A DNA stretch of 49,902 nucleotides, from positions 1 to 49,902 of the forward strand of contig JAGGVJ010000013.1 of assembly GCA_021158055.1 (NCBI GenBank), read 5' to 3'. The notes beneath the pieces are model-generated. The model saw only the letters and a program-made list of their open reading frames with translations. It did not search any database and was not told where the DNA came from. The DNA is from Candidatus Iainarchaeum sp. (GTDB lineage: Archaea > Iainarchaeota > Iainarchaeia > JAGGVJ01). A program made the position numbers and the translations under genes. Positions 12,770 to 23,595 of this stretch are shown here, one piece after another (position 1 is the first letter of the stretch; each line of letters opens with the position of its first letter).

Positions 12770-13423
12770 TTAAAATTTTCTGCTGCGTTTTTCTTCCCAC
12801 CCTGCAGGGTCTTCAATCCAGTCCATTACCTGTTCCTGTTCGTCTGATGAAAGGTAATTGTTTTCAACTGCAACTTTTAAGAGTTCAGGCAGGTTTGAAA
12901 GGCAGTTCAGTTTGATGTTGTTTTCTTCAAACGCGGTTTTTGAAGATTCAAAACCATAGCTGAAAATTGCTTTGCAGTTGTTTACGATTCCGCCTTCTTC
13001 TCGGATTGCGTTTGCGACATTTATTGAGCTTCCTCCCGTGCTTATCAAGTCTTCAACCACGACCACTCTTTGGCCTTTTTCAATTTTTCCTTCAATCAGG
13101 TTTTTTTTACCGTGTTCTTTCTTTTTTGCGCGCACGTAAATCATCGGAAGGTCAAGGCGCTCTGCGATAAAAGCCGCGTGAGGTATTCCTGCGGTGGCTG
13201 TTCCCGCCAGAAGGTCAACATTGTCAAGGCCTATTTTTTTTTCAAGAACTTCAACAAAACAGTCAACAACCAGTTTTCGTTTTATAGTGTCTGAAATCAG
13301 GATCCGGCAGTCAGTGTAAATCGGGCTTAATATTCCGGAACTGTACCTGAAAGGCTCGGTTGTATTGATGGAAACAGCTTTTAAATCAAGTAATGCTTTT
13401 GCAACAACGCTGCTAAACTCCAT
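12770..13423 (-). CDS. pyrE: Orotate phosphoribosyltransferase
   Basis: Makes orotidine 5'-monophosphate from orotate and PRPP. The 217-residue protein shows FRYSSGILSPIYTDCR near the N-terminus and the PRPP motif VVVVEDLISTGGSS at about residues 122-135, with the KKKEHGKKNLIEG flexible loop before it. ATG 13423 is preceded by GGGGGAAA, almost the same ribosome binding site as used by pyrD on the other side. It diverges from the pyrD-K-C-F operon across a 344-bp region with tandem repeats, which suggests shared control. Confidence 0.93.
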   Translation of the reverse strand: MEFSSVVAKALLDLKAVSINTTEPFRYSSGILSPIYTDCRILISDTIKRKLVVDCFVEVLEKKIGLDNVDLLAGTATAGIPHAAFIAERLDLPMIYVRAKKKEHGKKNLIEGKIEKGQRVVVVEDLISTGGSSINVANAIREEGGIVNNCKAIFSYGFESSKTAFEENNIKLNCLSNLPELLKVAVENNYLSSDEQEQVMDWIEDPAGWEEKRSRKF

Positions 13424-13643: not shown

Positions 13644-13767
13644 TAGGTTTTGATATCTGTTGCAAACGACTGCAAAATACAACCTTGTCTGCTTGTTGCA
13701 ACACTGTTTGCAATAATTTTTCATAAAGTATTAATTGATTGGAAGAGCATTTATCTGCGGGGGAAAC

Positions 13768-14685
13768 ATGCCAAATCTTGAAACCGCTTTCTTGAATAAG
13801 ACTTTTTCAAATCCGACTGTTTTGTCATCCGGGATACTTGGAGTTTATGGTTCTTCCCTTGTAAGGGTTGCAATTGAGGGGGCAGGGGCGGTTACCTCGA
13901 AATCAATAAGCCTCAACTACCGGAGCGGGCACCCAAACCCGATAATTGTTGAGTTTGAAGCCGGTTTGATAAACGCGGTCGGGCTTTCGACACACGGGAT
14001 CGACGATTCGATTTCTGAAATTTCTTACGCAGTAAAAAATTCCCCAAGCCCGGTAATTGCAAGCGTTTTTGCAGACAACGTGGAAAACTTTGCGCTTGTG
14101 TCGCAAAGAATAAACGAGGCAAACCCTGATTTTATTGAAGTGAACATATCGTGCCCGAACGTGGAATCAGAGTTTGGAAAGCCCTTTGCAACCGACCCAA
14201 AAACTTCGGCCGCAGTTACTTCGGCAGTCAAAAAAGTTTCAAAAGCGCCGGTAATAGTTAAGCTTTCGCCAAACGTGCCGAACATAAAACTCATTGCAAA
14301 AAGCGTTGTTGACGCAGGCGCTGACGCAATATGTGCGATAAACACGGTTGGGCCGGGCATGGTGATTGACATAGAAAGCGCCAAACCGATTTTAAGCAAC
14401 AAAGTCGGAGGCGTGTCAGGGCCGGCGATAAAGCCTGTTGCGGTCCGGTGTGTCTATGACATTTTTTCCGAAGTTGACGTTCCCATAATCGGTGTCGGCG
14501 GAGTTACAAACGGAAGCGACGCAATTGAAATGATTTTTGCAGGGGCAACGGCTGTGGGAATCGGAAGTGCCGTGCACTATCGGGGGATAGGCGTGTTCAA
14601 AAAGGTGTCAAAGGAAATTTTCCGATTCATGGACACCCACGATTATTCATCAATTGAAGAAATGAGGGGACTTGCACATGAATGA
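13768..14685 (+). CDS. pyrD: Dihydroorotate dehydrogenase, class 1B catalytic subunit
   Basis: Oxidises dihydroorotate to orotate. The 305-residue FMN TIM barrel has the class 1 active-site loop NISCPN with Cys129 as catalytic base, and GVGGVTNGSDAIEMIFAGAT near the C-terminus for phosphate binding. The pyrK gene overlaps its end, which identifies it as the NAD-dependent 1B type. ATG 13768 follows CGGGGGAAAC; a TTG at 13735 is a weaker upstream alternative. First gene of the plus-strand pyrimidine operon. Confidence 0.93.
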   Translation: MPNLETAFLNKTFSNPTVLSSGILGVYGSSLVRVAIEGAGAVTSKSISLNYRSGHPNPIIVEFEAGLINAVGLSTHGIDDSISEISYAVKNSPSPVIASVFADNVENFALVSQRINEANPDFIEVNISCPNVESEFGKPFATDPKTSAAVTSAVKKVSKAPVIVKLSPNVPNIKLIAKSVVDAGADAICAINTVGPGMVIDIESAKPILSNKVGGVSGPAIKPVAVRCVYDIFSEVDVPIIGVGGVTNGSDAIEMIFAGATAVGIGSAVHYRGIGVFKKVSKEIFRFMDTHDYSSIEEMRGLAHE

Positions 14686-15547
14686 AGGCGCGCAGAATTC
14701 AGGGAGGCTCAACAAGCCGATTACCCTTCCGATTGTCAAAGTGGTGGATGAGGCAAAAGATTTCAAATCTTTTTATTTTGATTTTGACCTGGACGCAAAA
14801 CCAGGGCAGTTTGTGACTGTGTGGATTCCCGGAGTAAACGAAAAACCGTTTGCGGTTTCAGGCCAGAAAGACGGGCTGTTTTCAGTTACTGTTTCTGCAG
14901 TCGGGCCGTTTACAAACAAAATGCACGAACTCAAAGAAGGGGATAAGGTCGGAGTGAAAGGGCCTTACGGGACCCACTACAAAATTTCCGGGCCAGACTG
15001 TGACGGAACCGGAGCTGAACACAAAAACCTTGTTCTGGTCGCAGGGGGGTATGGGGTTGCTCCACTTGTGTTTCTTGCAGAAGAGGCGGTCGGAAAAGGA
15101 GTTCAGACAACAATGATTGCGGGAACGCGGACAAAAGAACTTTTGGCATTCCGGGAAAAACTTGAAAGCATTGGCGTTGAGTACCTGGCTGCAACCGATG
15201 ACGGTTCAGAAGGGTTTCACGGTTTTGTGACAGACGTGCTTGAAAACCAGATAAGCCAGGGCAAAGCAAGCGAAATCTGTGCCTGCGGCCCCAGACCGAT
15301 GCTTGAGCGGGTGGGGGCAATCGCTGAAAAGCACAATTTGCCGGGCCAGTTTGGTCTTGAAAGTTACATGAAGTGCGGTTTCGGGATATGCGGGGAATGC
15401 GCTGTTGACTATAAAGGGATTCACATATGCAAAGACGGCCCGGTTTTTCCGCTTGCAACCGCTATGAAAATTTTTCGCTTCAAAAAAGAAAATGACAATT
15501 TTTCTCAGGACAATACAGATGACAAAAGTGAAAAAGAGGTGTTTTAA
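14678..15547 (+). CDS. pyrK: Dihydroorotate dehydrogenase electron transfer subunit
   Basis: Iron-sulfur flavoprotein that passes electrons from PyrD to NAD+. A ferredoxin-reductase-like FAD domain (PGQFVTVWIPG, KPFAVSG), an NAD-binding part (LVLVAGGYGVAPLVFLAEEA) and a C-terminal 2Fe-2S cluster site (MKCGFGICGECAVDYKG then HICKDGP; four Cys) are all visible. The protein has 289 residues with an acidic, low-complexity tail. ATG 14678 overlaps pyrD by 8 bp; its TAA overlaps the pyrC ATG by one base, so the three genes are tightly coupled. Confidence 0.92.
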   Translation: MNEGAQNSGRLNKPITLPIVKVVDEAKDFKSFYFDFDLDAKPGQFVTVWIPGVNEKPFAVSGQKDGLFSVTVSAVGPFTNKMHELKEGDKVGVKGPYGTHYKISGPDCDGTGAEHKNLVLVAGGYGVAPLVFLAEEAVGKGVQTTMIAGTRTKELLAFREKLESIGVEYLAATDDGSEGFHGFVTDVLENQISQGKASEICACGPRPMLERVGAIAEKHNLPGQFGLESYMKCGFGICGECAVDYKGIHICKDGPVFPLATAMKIFRFKKENDNFSQDNTDDKSEKEVF

Positions 15548-16908
15548 TGAGTCTTGCAATCCTTGGCTGTTCCATTGTTGAAAACCAGCGTCTGGTTGAA
15601 AAAAACGTTTTTGTAAGGGAAGGAAAAATTTATGAAATAACCCCTTCTTCAGACATTTCAAACAAAAGGGACTTTGACATAATCATTGACGGTAGAAAAA
15701 AAGTTTTGCTGCCGGGAGTAATTGACGCACACGTGCATTTTCGCGTTCCTGGAGGGGAGCACAAGGAAGACTGGACAACGGGTTCTTGCGCGGCGGCGTC
15801 CGGGGGAGTGACTACTGTTCTTGACATGCCGAACACGTCTCCCCCGACAACAACTGTTGACAGGCTCAATGAAAAGCGGATCATTGCTTCAAACAAAAGC
15901 ATCATTGACTTTGGGTTTCACTTTGGGGCGGAATTCGGCAACGCCAACGAGATAGAGAAAGCCAGAAACATTGCGTCAATTAAAATATTCATGGGTTCGT
16001 CAACAGGAAACCTGCTGATTGACGACGATGCGGAACTTTATTCAATATTTGAACTCGCAGAAAAACATGACTTGCTTTGCACTGTTCACGCGGAAAACGA
16101 GCGGCTCATAAAACTGTTTTCAGACCAGGCAAAATTCAATGGGAAAACTTCACCCACAATACACCCTCTTATCAGGAACAATTTATGCGCGGCGGAAGCG
16201 GTTTCAAAAGCAGAGCTTTTTTCAAGGTTTGTGGGAAACAGGCTTCACGTCTGCCACGTCAGCACAAAAGAAGAGCTTGACTTCATAAAACTTGGAAAAA
16301 AATTGCAAAGAGAAGGCAGGCTTTCAGCCGAGGCAACCATGCACCATTTGCTGTTGTCGAGCGCAGCAATGCTGAAATCAGGGAACTATGCCAAGATGAA
16401 TCCTCCTCTTCGCTCCAAGGAAGACATAAGCGCGCTTTGGTCAAGCCTGAGAGAAGGCGTGATTGACATTATCGCGTCTGATCACGCCCCGCACACGCGC
16501 GAGGAAAAAGATAAGCCGTACTGGCAGGCGCCTGCAGGGGTTCCGGGAGTGGAAACAAACTTGCCGCTTCTTTTAAACGAGGTGAACAGGAAAACTTTGT
16601 CTTTTGAAGACCTCATAAATTTTACAAGCAAAAACCCTGCGAAAATATACAGGATAAAAAACAAGGGTGAGATGAAGAGAGGTTATGACGCTGACTTTGC
16701 ACTGGTTGACATGGACATTGAACAGATACTTTCAAGCTCAAATGTAAAAACAAAATGCGGATGGACTCCCTTCAACGGCATCACAGTCCAGGGTGCGGTT
16801 GAAAAAACGATTGTGCGGGGAAAAATAGTGTTTGACAAGGGAGAGTTCTTTTTGAACAAGGGAAAAGAAGTTGAATTCACGCGCAGCACAACATCTGAAA
16901 CAGAGTGA
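15547..16908 (+). CDS. pyrC: Dihydroorotase
   Basis: Closes the ring of carbamoyl aspartate to dihydroorotate. The 453-residue amidohydrolase has the metal motif DAHVHFRVPGG, further histidines in VHAEN and VCHVSTKEE, and the conserved IASDHAPHTREEKDKPYW loop of class I dihydroorotases. The metal-bridging carboxylated lysine of some members appears replaced or shifted (SIKIFMGSSTGN contains a candidate Lys). Starts at ATG 15547 in a TAATG overlap with pyrK. An allantoinase role is less likely given the operon. Confidence 0.92.
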   Translation: MSLAILGCSIVENQRLVEKNVFVREGKIYEITPSSDISNKRDFDIIIDGRKKVLLPGVIDAHVHFRVPGGEHKEDWTTGSCAAASGGVTTVLDMPNTSPPTTTVDRLNEKRIIASNKSIIDFGFHFGAEFGNANEIEKARNIASIKIFMGSSTGNLLIDDDAELYSIFELAEKHDLLCTVHAENERLIKLFSDQAKFNGKTSPTIHPLIRNNLCAAEAVSKAELFSRFVGNRLHVCHVSTKEELDFIKLGKKLQREGRLSAEATMHHLLLSSAAMLKSGNYAKMNPPLRSKEDISALWSSLREGVIDIIASDHAPHTREEKDKPYWQAPAGVPGVETNLPLLLNEVNRKTLSFEDLINFTSKNPAKIYRIKNKGEMKRGYDADFALVDMDIEQILSSSNVKTKCGWTPFNGITVQGAVEKTIVRGKIVFDKGEFFLNKGKEVEFTRSTTSETE

Positions 16909-16937: not shown

Positions 16938-18695
16938 ATGAACAAAAATTTTGCTGACAGGCTGATTGAAGCAATAGAAAAAAAAGAAAACCCGACGGTT
17001 GTCGGGCTGGACCCGTGGTTTAAGGATATACCTGAGTCCCTTAAAAAAGAGACATTTCTCAAGTTTGGCGATTCGTTTGAGTCAGTGGGAAAATGCATTC
17101 TTGAATTCAACACCCGGATAATAGACGCGGTCTGTGAGACTGTTCCGGCAGTAAAACTGCAGATGGCGGCTTACGAGCAATACCTGGAGCCGGGAATAAA
17201 CGCCTTCAGACAAACAACGGATTACGCAAGGAAAAAAGGACTTGTGGTTTTTGAAGACGGCAAAAGAAATGACATCGGTTCAACTGCTCAGGCATACGCT
17301 GACGGGCACATCGGAGAAGTTGCTCTTTTTGAAAAAAGTTCCGTTGCTTTCGGCGTCGACGCGATAACTGTCAGCCCCTACCTCGGGTCTGACGGGATAA
17401 GACCTTTTATTGAAAATTGTTCAAGATACGGCAACGGGATTTTTGTTCTCGTAAAGACATCAAACCCTTCAAGCAGTGAAGTCCAGGATCTTGAATGCAG
17501 TGCAGGCAACAAAAAGATATATGAAGTCATGGCTGAAATGGTAAATGAATGGGGCAAAGAAGCAATAGGGGAAACCGGTTACAGCAGCGTAGGTGCGGTT
17601 GTCGGTGCCACGTATCCGGAGGAAGCCGCAAAGTTAAGAAAGCTGATGCCGAATTCAATATTTTTGGTTCCCGGCTACGGCGCCCAAGGCGGGGGCGCAA
17701 AAGACGTTGTTCCGTGCTTTAACCCTGACGGCAGGGGTGCAATCGTAAACTCGTCCCGCGGGGTTATTTTCGCATACAAGAAATCAGGAGACCAGGAAGA
17801 ATTTGCAGGCGCTGCAAAAAATGAGGTGCTTGCTATGCAGGAAAATTTAAACAAGGCACTTTCTGAAAACGGAATTCCGGTGGGCAAAAAAACAACCACT
17901 CACCAAAGCGGTTCCGGTTCCGGTTTAGGCTCTGAACAAGATGAAAACAAAGTTTTTACCGGTGAAAAGATCGCTGAAGGAAAAACAAAAACAGTTTTTG
18001 AAGACGCAAAAGACGAAAACGCTGTTCTTCTTTTTTTCAGGGACGACATAACAGCAGGCGACGGTGCCAAGCATGATATCATGGGAGGAAAAGGAAAACT
18101 CAACTGGGAGACAACAACTGAAGTGTTCAGGTTTCTTGAGTCAAAAGGCATTGCGACTCACTTTATCTCGTCCCCGAAACAATGTTATCTCAAGGCAAAA
18201 AAAGTGGAGATGATCCCGATTGAATGCGTTGCAAGAAGGCTTGCATACGGGTCCCTTCTGAAACGCCTGCCGTTTGAGAAAAAGCACAGGTTTGAAGTCC
18301 CGCTGGTTGAATTCTTTTTCAAGGACGATGAAAAAAACGATCCGATGGTAACAGACCAGCACATCCGGACGCTTGCAATCGCAGGCGCTGACGAGGTAAA
18401 CCAGATGCGCGAGATCACAAGAAAAGTATTTGAACTGCTTGAGGAAAAATTCACGGAAAAAGGCTCTACTCTTGTGGACATGAAAATAGAGTTCGGAAGG
18501 GCAAAAGACGGTTCGCTTCTTGTTGCAGACGAAATAACCGGCGACAGCTGGAGGCTCTGGGAAGGAGGCGAAGAGTCAAAAATGATGGATAAGCAGATTT
18601 ACAGAAACGGCGCTTCTATGCAGGATGTTAAAAGCGGTTACGAAAAAACCCTTGACACGATAAGGCGGTTTGATGATCCCCAGCAAAAAGAATGA
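16938..18695 (+). CDS. pyrF-purC: Fused OMP decarboxylase - SAICAR synthetase
   Basis: One uninterrupted 585-residue frame joins two enzymes. Residues 1 to about 315 are a group III (long, bacterial-like) OMP decarboxylase: VVGLDPWF, FEDGKRNDIGSTAQAYADG with the catalytic Lys/Asp, and VPGYGAQGGG plus NSSRGVIFAY for phosphate. A linker rich in Gly/Ser (HQSGSGSGLGSEQDE, about 320-336) leads to a full SAICAR synthetase (PurC) from about 340: IAEGKTKTVFE, FFRDDITAGDG, ECVARRLAYGSLLKR and DEITGDSWRLW. The product would make UMP and also perform a purine step. ATG 16938 lies 29 bp after pyrC; purB overlaps the end by 23 bp. Both halves look intact. Confidence 0.93.
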   Translation: MNKNFADRLIEAIEKKENPTVVGLDPWFKDIPESLKKETFLKFGDSFESVGKCILEFNTRIIDAVCETVPAVKLQMAAYEQYLEPGINAFRQTTDYARKKGLVVFEDGKRNDIGSTAQAYADGHIGEVALFEKSSVAFGVDAITVSPYLGSDGIRPFIENCSRYGNGIFVLVKTSNPSSSEVQDLECSAGNKKIYEVMAEMVNEWGKEAIGETGYSSVGAVVGATYPEEAAKLRKLMPNSIFLVPGYGAQGGGAKDVVPCFNPDGRGAIVNSSRGVIFAYKKSGDQEEFAGAAKNEVLAMQENLNKALSENGIPVGKKTTTHQSGSGSGLGSEQDENKVFTGEKIAEGKTKTVFEDAKDENAVLLFFRDDITAGDGAKHDIMGGKGKLNWETTTEVFRFLESKGIATHFISSPKQCYLKAKKVEMIPIECVARRLAYGSLLKRLPFEKKHRFEVPLVEFFFKDDEKNDPMVTDQHIRTLAIAGADEVNQMREITRKVFELLEEKFTEKGSTLVDMKIEFGRAKDGSLLVADEITGDSWRLWEGGEESKMMDKQIYRNGASMQDVKSGYEKTLDTIRRFDDPQQKE

Positions 18696-20091
18696 GTCTG
18701 CAACTGACGGCCTTATTCACCCGATTGATTACCGCTACCTTGTTCCCGAACTGGTCGGCTTTTTGTCAAACCAGGCAACCCTTGCGTACCGGCTGAAAGT
18801 CGAAGCAGCACACGCGCGGGCTTTTGCGCGTTTTGGCTTGTGTTCAAAGGAAGTTGCAGAGGAGATAACAAAAAAAGCAACCACCGAGTTTGTGTCGTCA
18901 AAAGAAGTCGATGAAAAAGAGCGCGAACTGAAGCATGACATAAGGGCGATGGTTGAAGTTCTCGGGGCGCAGCTCAGCGAAGAGGCAAAGCCGTTTCGGC
19001 ACCTGGGCATGACTTCGTTTGATGTTGTGAACACCGCGCAGACCCTTGCAATAAAGGACTGCACAAAAAAAGCAGTGATTCCGGCTCTTGTAGCACTTGA
19101 AAAAACGCTTATTAAAATTGCGCGAAGGGAAAAAGAAACAGTTCAGATCGGAAGGACGCATGGGCAACACGCAGAACCGATCACTTTCGGTTTTTATATC
19201 TCAAACTTTGTTGACAGGTTCGGGCGCGGGATGCTGAACATAAACAACGCGTCTGAAGCGCTTACCGGGAAAGTTGCGGGAGCTGTCGGAACAAAAGCAC
19301 CGTTTGCGCTTTTTGAAGCAGATGCTGACGCGCTTGAAAAAGCAGTGCTTGATGAGCTCGGGCTCAAACCGGCACCGGTCAGCACCCAGATAGTTCCGGG
19401 TGAAGAGCTTGCAAACTATTTTTCCCAGGTGACAATTTGCTTTGCAACTCTTGCAGACCTTGCAAATGACATGCGCAATCTGCAAAGGACAGAGATAGCT
19501 GAAGTTTTTGAAGGGTTTTCAGACAAGCAGGTCGGCTCTTCAACAATGCCCCAGAAGAGAAATCCGATAAGCTGGGAGAATATAATCAGCCAGTTCAAGG
19601 CAGTCAAGCCCCATATAATCAGCGTTTACGACGATATAATTTCAGAGCACCAGCGCGACCTGACAAACTCGGCGTCTGCAAAGTACTATATTCCTGAATT
19701 CATAAACGCTTTTGTGTACTCTGTCAAGAGGGCGACTTCTGTTCTTGAAAAGCTTGAAATTGACCGTGAATCGATGAAGAGAAATTTTGACTCGAACAAA
19801 GGGTTTGTGCTTGCAGAACCGCTTTATATACTCCTTGCGAAAAATGGCCATCCGGATGCGCATGAGTTTGTGCGAAGAATTGTGGTTTTTGCCCGCGAGA
19901 ACAACTTGTCTTTTACTGAAGCGCTTGCGGAAAACAGCGAATCAAGGCAGTTTATTGACAGTTTGCCTGAAAAGCACCGCGCCATTTTTTCCAGCCCGCA
20001 GAAATACGTCGGGGTGTCAGTTGAAAAGACAGAGGAGATTGCTTTGTTTTGGGAAAGCAGATTAGCCGGTTTGAACAAGGAGTTATTTTGA
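18673..20091 (+). CDS. purB: Adenylosuccinate lyase
   Basis: Acts twice in purine synthesis, cleaving SAICAR (product of the preceding PurC) and adenylosuccinate. The 472-residue fumarase-superfamily protein has HDIRAMVEVL, the TSFDVVNTAQ helix, GRTHGQHAEPITFG with the active-site His, and the signature SSTMPQKRNPISWENI. ATG 18673 overlaps the pyrF-purC end by 23 bp; TTG 18670 is also possible. The 3' end flows into a 17-bp tandem repeat that overlaps its stop codon. Confidence 0.93.
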   Translation: MIPSKKNESATDGLIHPIDYRYLVPELVGFLSNQATLAYRLKVEAAHARAFARFGLCSKEVAEEITKKATTEFVSSKEVDEKERELKHDIRAMVEVLGAQLSEEAKPFRHLGMTSFDVVNTAQTLAIKDCTKKAVIPALVALEKTLIKIARREKETVQIGRTHGQHAEPITFGFYISNFVDRFGRGMLNINNASEALTGKVAGAVGTKAPFALFEADADALEKAVLDELGLKPAPVSTQIVPGEELANYFSQVTICFATLADLANDMRNLQRTEIAEVFEGFSDKQVGSSTMPQKRNPISWENIISQFKAVKPHIISVYDDIISEHQRDLTNSASAKYYIPEFINAFVYSVKRATSVLEKLEIDRESMKRNFDSNKGFVLAEPLYILLAKNGHPDAHEFVRRIVVFARENNLSFTEALAENSESRQFIDSLPEKHRAIFSSPQKYVGVSVEKTEEIALFWESRLAGLNKELF

Positions 20092-20190
20092 AGAAACAGT
20101 CAGTTTGAAGAAACAGTCAGTTTGAAGAAACAGTCAGTTTGAAGAAACAGTCAGTTTGAAGAAACAGTCAGTTTGAAGAAACAGTCAGTT
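20090..20190 (+). repeat. 17-bp tandem repeat, six copies, at purB stop
   Basis: GAAGAAACAGTCAGTTT repeats perfectly at 20090, 20107, 20124, 20141, 20158 and 20175 (last copy 16 of 17 bases). The TGA of purB (20089-20091) overlaps the first copy and each junction recreates TTTGA. The perfect copies imply recent expansion or selection. Confidence 0.95.
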
Positions 20191-20257
20191 ATGTTTTTTA
20201 GCTTGTTTGTTGCTTTGGATATACTCTGAATAATAAAAGGTTTAAAGGGGGGTTTTT

Positions 20258-20704
20258 TTGAAGGTATTAGTTGCAATGGGAAGCAAGTCTGACCGGAAGA
20301 TTCTTGACAAGGCCGTGAAAATTCTTGACGAGTTTGAAATTCCGTATGAATTTGAATTGGTTTCGTCCCACAGGACACCTGACAAGGTTGACGTTGTCGC
20401 TGAAAGAATAGAGAAAGAGTTTGATGTCTGCATTGCAATCGCAGGGCTTTCAGCGGCTCTTCCCGGAGACATTGCCGCAAGAACCACGAAGCCGGTTATC
20501 GGATGCCCGGTGGATGTAAAGCTTGGCGGGCTTGACGCGTTGTATTCGATTGTGCAGATGCCTCCCGGAACCCCGCTTGCATGCGTCGGAATAGACCGCG
20601 GGGAAAACGCAGCCCTTTTAGCGGCTTCAATTCTTTCGATAAGCAACATGCAAGTCAGGCAAAAAATACTTGAGTACAGGAAAAAAAGGCGCGAAGAATA
20701 CTAA
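20258..20704 (+). CDS. purE: N5-carboxyaminoimidazole ribonucleotide mutase / AIR carboxylase
   Basis: Supplies carboxylated AIR, the substrate for PurC. The 148-residue protein has the PurE signature: AMGSKSDRKIL, SSHRTPDKV, AIAGLSAALPGDIAART, and GCPVDVKLGGLDALYSIVQMPPGTPLA. It uses a TTG start at 20258, supported by a G-rich ribosome binding site (AAAGGGGGG) 7-8 nt upstream. It is separated from purB by the tandem repeat and about 70 bp, so it may have its own transcript. Confidence 0.92.
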   Translation: MKVLVAMGSKSDRKILDKAVKILDEFEIPYEFELVSSHRTPDKVDVVAERIEKEFDVCIAIAGLSAALPGDIAARTTKPVIGCPVDVKLGGLDALYSIVQMPPGTPLACVGIDRGENAALLAASILSISNMQVRQKILEYRKKRREEY

Positions 20705-22050: not shown

Positions 22051-23595
22051 ATGGCTTTTGAAAAAATAATCGTCCTTGATTTCGGAGGGCAATACGCGCA
22101 TTTGATAGCGCGCAGGATAAGGGAAGCCGGAGTGAAAAGCGAAGTTTTCCCGTGTTCTGCGACGGCACAGGAACTGAAAGCCCTTGAGTGTGATTTAGGT
22201 TCAAAGATAAAGGGAATCGTGTTTTCAGGCGGGCCCTCCGGAGTATATGAAGAAAACGCCCCGGAATGCGACCCGCAAATACTTGACCTGGGGGTGCCTG
22301 TTCTCGGGTTGTGTTTTGGGCACCAGCTGATTGCAAAACTTCTTGGCGGGCGTGTTGAAAAAGGCGCAGGGGAATACGGGGTTGCGCAGCTTGAAATACG
22401 AAAGGAAAGCCCTGTTTTTGAAGGGCTTGACGCACGTCAAAGCGTGTGGATGAGCCATGGTGACAGTGTTGTTGAGCCCCCGCAAGGGTTTGATGTCCTT
22501 GCAGGCACGCCTGAGTGCGGGGTGGCTGCGTTTGGAAACGGTTCAATTTTCGGGTTGCAGTTTCACCCGGAAGTGACCCACACAGAAAACGGTCAAAAAA
22601 TGATTTCAAATTTTGTGCTTGAAGTGTGCAGGTGTGAAAAAAACTGGGGCATTGAGGATTTTGCAGAAAAATCGGTTTTGGAAATAAAAAAACAAGTCGG
22701 AAGTTCAAAAGCGATAATTGCGTTGAGCGGAGGCGTGGACAGCTCAGTCGCAACTGTGCTTGGTTCGCTTGCAATGGGAAAAAACCTGACTGCAGTTTAC
22801 GTTGACAACGGGTTCATGCGAAAAGGCGAAACTGATTTTGTGAAAAAAACGTTTGAACAGCACTTTGAACTGAACCTGATTGTTGTGGATGCCAAAGAAC
22901 GGTTTTTTGAAGCAGTGCGCGGGGTGACTGACCCTGAACAGAAACGAAAAATAATCGGGTGCGAGTTCATTAGGGTGTTTGAAGAAGAGGCAAGGAAAAT
23001 AAATGCAGATTACCTGTTTCAGGGGACGATTTACCCTGACAGGATTGAATCCGGCTCAAGCAAACACTCGTCAACAATAAAAACCCACCACAATGTCGGC
23101 GGGTTGCCGGAAGACATTGAATTCAAAGGCATAATCGAGCCTTTGACAGACCTTTACAAAGACGAAGTCCGGAAAGTCGGGGAAAACCTGGATCTTCCAA
23201 AACAAATTGTCTGGAGGCAGCCTTTTCCGGGACCGGGTCTTGCAGTGCGCATAGTCGGGGATGTTACCCCTCAAAAAGTAAAACTGCTGCAGGAAGCAGA
23301 CGCGATTGTCAGGGAAACTGTTTTGCGGTACGGTGTTGAAGACAAAATCTGGCAGTATTTTGCAGTGCTTACAGGCACCAAGTCCACGGGGGTAAAAGGG
23401 GATTCAAGGATGTACGGAGATACAGTTGCAATCAGGATGGTCGAAAGCAGCGATGCCATGACTGCCGGGTTTTTCAAGCCGGACTGGGCGCTTCTCGAAG
23501 AAATCTCCACAAGAATAACAAATACGCTTCCCGAAGTGACAAGGGTGGTTTATGACATAACCCACAAGCCCCCGGCAACAATTGAGTGGGAGTAG
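22051..23595 (+). CDS. guaA: GMP synthase, fused two-domain form
   Basis: Converts XMP to GMP using glutamine. Residues 1 to about 195 are the class I amidotransferase (GLCFGHQ with Cys88, and FHPEVTH with His/Glu). The ATP pyrophosphatase domain has the P-loop SGGVDSSVA at about 226-234, and the C-terminal dimerisation domain shows RQPFPGPGLAVRI and VYDITHKPPATIEWE. Many archaea split these two domains over two genes, so the single 514-residue chain is the bacterial arrangement. ATG 22051 follows AAAGGT. Probably ends the purine group. Confidence 0.95.
   Translation: MAFEKIIVLDFGGQYAHLIARRIREAGVKSEVFPCSATAQELKALECDLGSKIKGIVFSGGPSGVYEENAPECDPQILDLGVPVLGLCFGHQLIAKLLGGRVEKGAGEYGVAQLEIRKESPVFEGLDARQSVWMSHGDSVVEPPQGFDVLAGTPECGVAAFGNGSIFGLQFHPEVTHTENGQKMISNFVLEVCRCEKNWGIEDFAEKSVLEIKKQVGSSKAIIALSGGVDSSVATVLGSLAMGKNLTAVYVDNGFMRKGETDFVKKTFEQHFELNLIVVDAKERFFEAVRGVTDPEQKRKIIGCEFIRVFEEEARKINADYLFQGTIYPDRIESGSSKHSSTIKTHHNVGGLPEDIEFKGIIEPLTDLYKDEVRKVGENLDLPKQIVWRQPFPGPGLAVRIVGDVTPQKVKLLQEADAIVRETVLRYGVEDKIWQYFAVLTGTKSTGVKGDSRMYGDTVAIRMVESSDAMTAGFFKPDWALLEEISTRITNTLPEVTRVVYDITHKPPATIEWE

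Follow-up and report, generated by a model that had tools for sequence, protein, structure and literature searches.

The window, the 49,902-nucleotide stretch of archaeal DNA analysed here, contains one open reading frame (positions 16938..18695, + strand, ATG to TGA, 585 aa) that joins orotidine-5'-phosphate (OMP) decarboxylase (PyrF) to SAICAR synthetase (PurC). Two complete, conserved enzymes lie in one frame, which is confirmed. From this we infer with good confidence a bifunctional protein, formed by in-frame fusion where two gene clusters adjoin. That both halves are active, that they are translated as a single chain and that the mutations came in the proposed order are part of this inference. 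The pairing is new, although the two enzymes are known ones; it has so far been found in a single genome and is probably real.

The layout along the 585 residues is PyrF at about 1-315, a linker, and PurC at about 343-576. Both Pfam domains score strongly on the same chain: PF00215 (OMPdecase) reaches 87.9 bits over residues 60-281 against a cut-off of 27, and PF01259 (SAICAR_synt) reaches 228.7 bits over residues 344-573 against one of 20. An SD-like sequence, GGGGGAT, lies upstream of the fusion ATG (duplex energy -8.4 kcal/mol). The coding score is positive in frame 0 before the linker and again directly after it, and a three-frame translation shows the remaining frames to be interrupted by stops within the linker. 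The source genome (1.15 Mb, 45 contigs, 95% complete) has a single PyrF match and a single PurC match. A spot check of the two pathways found PurL/PurM-type and PyrB-type genes elsewhere in that genome, with two transcarbamoylase genes in all; given these genes and the sole copies of PyrF and PurC, both halves of the fusion are presumably needed. The genome also encodes an archaeal ATP-dependent DNA ligase and a PilB3-like ATPase, which together with the archaeal origin of the closest PurC structures point to an archaeon, perhaps one of the DPANN kind. The original prediction had described a single 585-codon frame with a complete group III PyrF, a complete PurC and a Gly/Ser linker between them, placed at the junction of the pyr and pur genes. 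The frame is as given, both domains are strong with their motifs intact, and the remaining elements of that description are likewise borne out by the data below.

The PyrF half (16938..17882, + strand) was identified as a group III OMP decarboxylase by NCBIfam, by alignment and by AlphaFold2. Its score against TIGR02127 (pyrF_sub2) is 277.8 bits over residues 5-283, well above the subfamily cut-off of 110.6, which upholds the group III assignment. Residues D25, K73, D107, K109, D112 and Q250 are invariant in 14 PyrFs (the fusion and 13 unfused proteins), and the arginine of the SSRG motif, R274, is present in the fusion and in most aligned PyrFs. We take D25, K73, D107-x-K109-x-x-D112, Q250 and R274 to be the catalytic and phosphate-site residues of OMP decarboxylase. 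The AlphaFold2 model of this half has a mean pLDDT of 91, and a relative has been solved (3r89). The nearest unfused PyrFs are 55-62% identical, and most of them have IPW, YPW or KWPW as their last residues, immediately ahead of the stop codon; these align with residues 313-315 of the fusion. Judged by its sequence, the PyrF half very probably acts in the usual way, converting OMP to UMP.

The PurC half (17961..18692, + strand) is a SAICAR synthetase of the short type (about 240 aa), as indicated by Pfam, alignment and Foldseek. The motifs EGKTK, DDITAGDGAKHD, KGKLN, ARRLAYGS, FFKDDEKNDP, DMKIEFG, DEITGD and MMDKQIYR are present, and those residues of the conserved ATP- and substrate-site motifs that are invariant in 15 PurCs, the fusion and 14 unfused proteins, are all kept in the fusion. 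The score against TIGR00081 (purC) is 181.9 bits, slightly below the cut-off of 189.9, whereas PF01259 is far above its own. The AlphaFold2 model (mean pLDDT 87) finds its best Foldseek matches in the PurC of M. jannaschii (2z02/2yzl, TM 0.91-0.92 by target) and, over 233 columns, superimposes on 2z02 with an rmsd of 1.4 A. In unfused PurCs the N-terminus lies just a few residues ahead of EGKxK, which corresponds to about residue 335-341 of the fusion. This half very probably catalyses the usual reaction, from CAIR, aspartate and ATP to SAICAR, to go by its conserved residues.

The purC part probably came from outside, as far as a thin sampling of sequences can indicate. The nearest PurCs by identity among the matches listed (50%) belong to two genomes of another phylum of the same domain (G487 and G489), and in a small tree the window PurC joins the PurC part of an insect PAICS (4ja0) with support of 99/97, a grouping that comes with thin sampling and a long PAICS branch. 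In most PurC-bearing genomes of the window's own phylum PurC is longer (frames mostly of 314-395 aa) and only distantly related. A PAICS-like DSWRLW...DKQxYRN pattern occurs in the window PurC (17961-18692).

Between the two domains lies the linker GKKTTTHQSGSGSGLGSEQDENKVFT (17883..17960, + strand), which is Gly/Ser-rich, contains GGTTCC hexamer repeats and is predicted to be disordered; its length is about 20-25 residues. The intervening stretch GKKTTTHQSGSGSGLGSEQDENKV has no counterpart in the PyrF or PurC relatives compared. That the linker is open says little in itself, since about 20% of 26-codon stretches with intergenic composition would be free of stops; its richness in Gly and Ser counts for more. 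QSGSGSGLGSE, at about residues 323-333, holds the only 11-mers with at least 8 Gly or Ser among 14,095 in the proteins of the window, and a random 26-codon stretch with the composition of the window's intergenic DNA reaches that level in about 0.005% of trials. The G+C content of the linker is 50% vs 36% for the intergenic DNA of the window, and its coding score is neutral (0.1 vs -0.6 in the +1 frame). PyrF and PurC were aligned and modelled as separate halves, as a combined alignment misplaced PurC rows onto PyrF. In the two AlphaFold2 half models pLDDT falls below 50 at residues 318-335 and 321-340, and the flanking domains are well folded. The composition test and the disorder in both models agree with a Gly/Ser linker.

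The fusion is flanked by genes of both pathways. Upstream, pyrD, pyrK and pyrC (13735..16908, + strand) overlap one another and end 29 bp before it; pyrE is a separate gene on the opposite strand (12770-13423, -). Downstream are purB and purE (18670..20704, + strand), and purB, taken from its longest start, shares 26 bp with the 3' end of the fusion. The purE gene, which encodes the AIRC domain, is separate from the fusion chain (20258-20704, + strand). Further downstream are guaA (22051-23595) and genes for an adenosine-specific kinase family protein and an AlaX-like protein. Relatives often have pyrF closing a pyrD-pyrK-pyrC-(pyrE)-pyrF series, and their purC neighbours purB; the fusion accordingly occupies the meeting point of a pyr and a pur cluster.

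This arrangement suggests how the fusion could have formed. The pyrF gene would have been the last of pyrD-pyrK-pyrC-pyrF, and purC the first of purC-purB-purE. The two frames would have been joined when the pyrF stop was lost, probably along with an indel of one base next to the original purC start, and the former intergenic DNA would have become the flexible Gly/Ser linker. Each half would fold and work independently in a chain translated as one. The original prediction suggested that loss of an intergenic stop had produced the fusion; the position at the cluster junction agrees with this, but stop loss may not have been the sole event. The candidate former purC start, an ATG at 17941..17943 (+ strand), stands where an independent PurC would begin, beside the AAAA at 17944-17947, and is one base out of frame. 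For a real fusion this leaves two possibilities: the ATG is a chance one that purC never used, or a one-base deletion also took place.

The same four A residues raise the question of an artefact. If one A were missing from the assembled sequence at 17944-17947, pyrF would really run to 17965, its product carrying a tail of about 27 residues, and would overlap a separate purC that starts at ATG 17941; reading A4 instead of A5 would alone turn two such overlapping genes into the fusion frame. With A5 the PyrF frame would read ...GSEQDEKQSFYR followed by a stop, the TGA at 17963-17965, into whose frame the insertion of one base would shift PyrF. The PurC start would then be MKNKVFTGEKIAEGKTK, which resembles the start of an unfused PurC, MNILTGKKPIAEGKTK in L096, and overlaps of 1-26 bp are seen at other junctions of the cluster. 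However, this arrangement leaves PyrF with a Gly/Ser-rich tail that is absent from all relatives compared, and such a sequence suits a linker rather than a PyrF tail. No SD-like site precedes 17941, where the duplex energy of -3.4 kcal/mol is ordinary background. The other conserved genes scanned in the window are intact and full-length, with no sign of an indel-rich assembly. Short-read indels are rare in runs of A4 or A5, which also counts against a missing A. On the intact genes, the lack of an SD-like site and the character of the linker, we regard the artefact as unlikely, and the fusion frame as real with fairly high confidence.

A second alternative, that the fusion frame is real and free PurC is also or mainly made from the in-frame ATG of Met300 (17835..17837, + strand), is very improbable: an SD-like GAGGTG is well spaced before this ATG (window 17829-17837; duplex energy -9.3 kcal/mol vs a 1% background quantile of -9.7), but Met300 and its surroundings belong to the final helix of PyrF, as is usual in unfused relatives, Met300 is common in stand-alone PyrFs, so that the site may be a chance one and probably is, and a free PurC made from there would have about 40 surplus residues at its N-terminus.

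The original prediction had not recognised the PyrF and PurC pairing as a standard fusion, and the searches agree. Among the matches listed for about 1,100 different genomes within the same domain (1,375 with repeats), there was no second PyrF::PurC. There was none besides the source in the 87 genomes of the window's phylum and none in a domain-wide sample of 389 relatives. Five further phylum-level groups gave none among the matches listed at E-value limits of 1e-30 to 1e-60, strict limits that a strongly diverged fusion could escape. No plasmid record reached 80% coverage of the query, and no relative was found in the viral contigs. A near-exact peptide scan of GTDB 220 contigs, which reaches close relatives only, returned 2 loci, both matching only the PurC half. 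The literature searched by gene names, enzyme names and Pfam accessions does not describe the pairing. The fusion is unique within the genome, plasmid, viral and GTDB collections searched. It is known from one genome and one contig, and as this is the only genome of its family in the collection, no close relative is at hand to confirm the frame.

PyrF relatives among the matches listed are free-standing, or in one instance (G938) fused to PyrE. The 561-aa frame in G938 was considered as a second PyrF::PurC and rejected, being a PyrE::PyrF (L119, 610-2295, - strand) with the order OPRT-OMPDC and a PyrF 57% identical to that of the window. The genome search also returned PyrF matches with one in-frame stop, in L008 (G072; TAA), L011 (G030; TAA) and L069 (G335; TAG). 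Tandem pyrE-like domains were seen as one 440-aa frame in G1062 (L121, 151-1473, - strand) and as two neighbouring stretches in G249 (L081, 9110-10396, - strand).

Any gain from the fusion would lie in co-expression and a 1:1 dosage of PyrF and PurC. Substrate channelling was rejected: the steps from OMP to UMP and from CAIR to SAICAR share no metabolite, and channelling between them is not expected. The original prediction had UMP and AMP/GMP synthesis tied together in one polypeptide; a tie in the regulatory sense would be conjectural, as these steps have no intermediate in common. We consider it doubtful that this is the first pyrimidine-purine biosynthetic fusion of its pairing and was kept by selection for a fixed PyrF:PurC proportion, with a linker shaped for enzymes that fold and oligomerise independently and possibly with cross-regulation. 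Most likely, two ordinary enzymes have simply become fused at an operon junction. As a cross-pathway fusion at a cluster boundary, it would offer a natural example of gene order alone creating a bifunctional protein, and a testable case in which coupling of two nucleotide pathways can be set against neutrality.

When biosynthetic enzymes are fused, the steps concerned usually belong to one pathway. UMP synthase (PyrE/OPRT with PyrF/OMPDC; NCBIfam NF004034, eukaryotic UMPS) resembles the window protein in that an OMP decarboxylase is joined to a nucleotide enzyme. There, however, the partner enzyme acts one step earlier in the same pathway, whereas the partner in the window belongs to the other pathway and pyrE is separate; the Pribosyltran domain is absent from the fusion chain, which is thus distinct from a PyrE/PyrF protein. 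Among archaeal purine genes, fusions of PurN with PurH1 in Halobacteria and of PurE with PurE' in Methanobacteria have been described, as has a radical-SAM/CofG-like domain joined to a PurC-like domain (PMC3261824). These fusions from that source likewise involve purine enzymes, one of them with a PurC-like domain, but none of those named here has an OMP decarboxylase partner. The animal PAICS (PurC::PurE) also contains a fused PurC, and it is with the insect form, 4ja0, that the window PurC groups. The AIRC domain is absent from the fusion chain, which sets it apart from a PurC/PurE protein. In PAICS, PurC forms the N-terminal part of the chain and PurE is its partner; in the window protein PurC is the C-terminal part, PyrF is the partner, and purE is a gene of its own.
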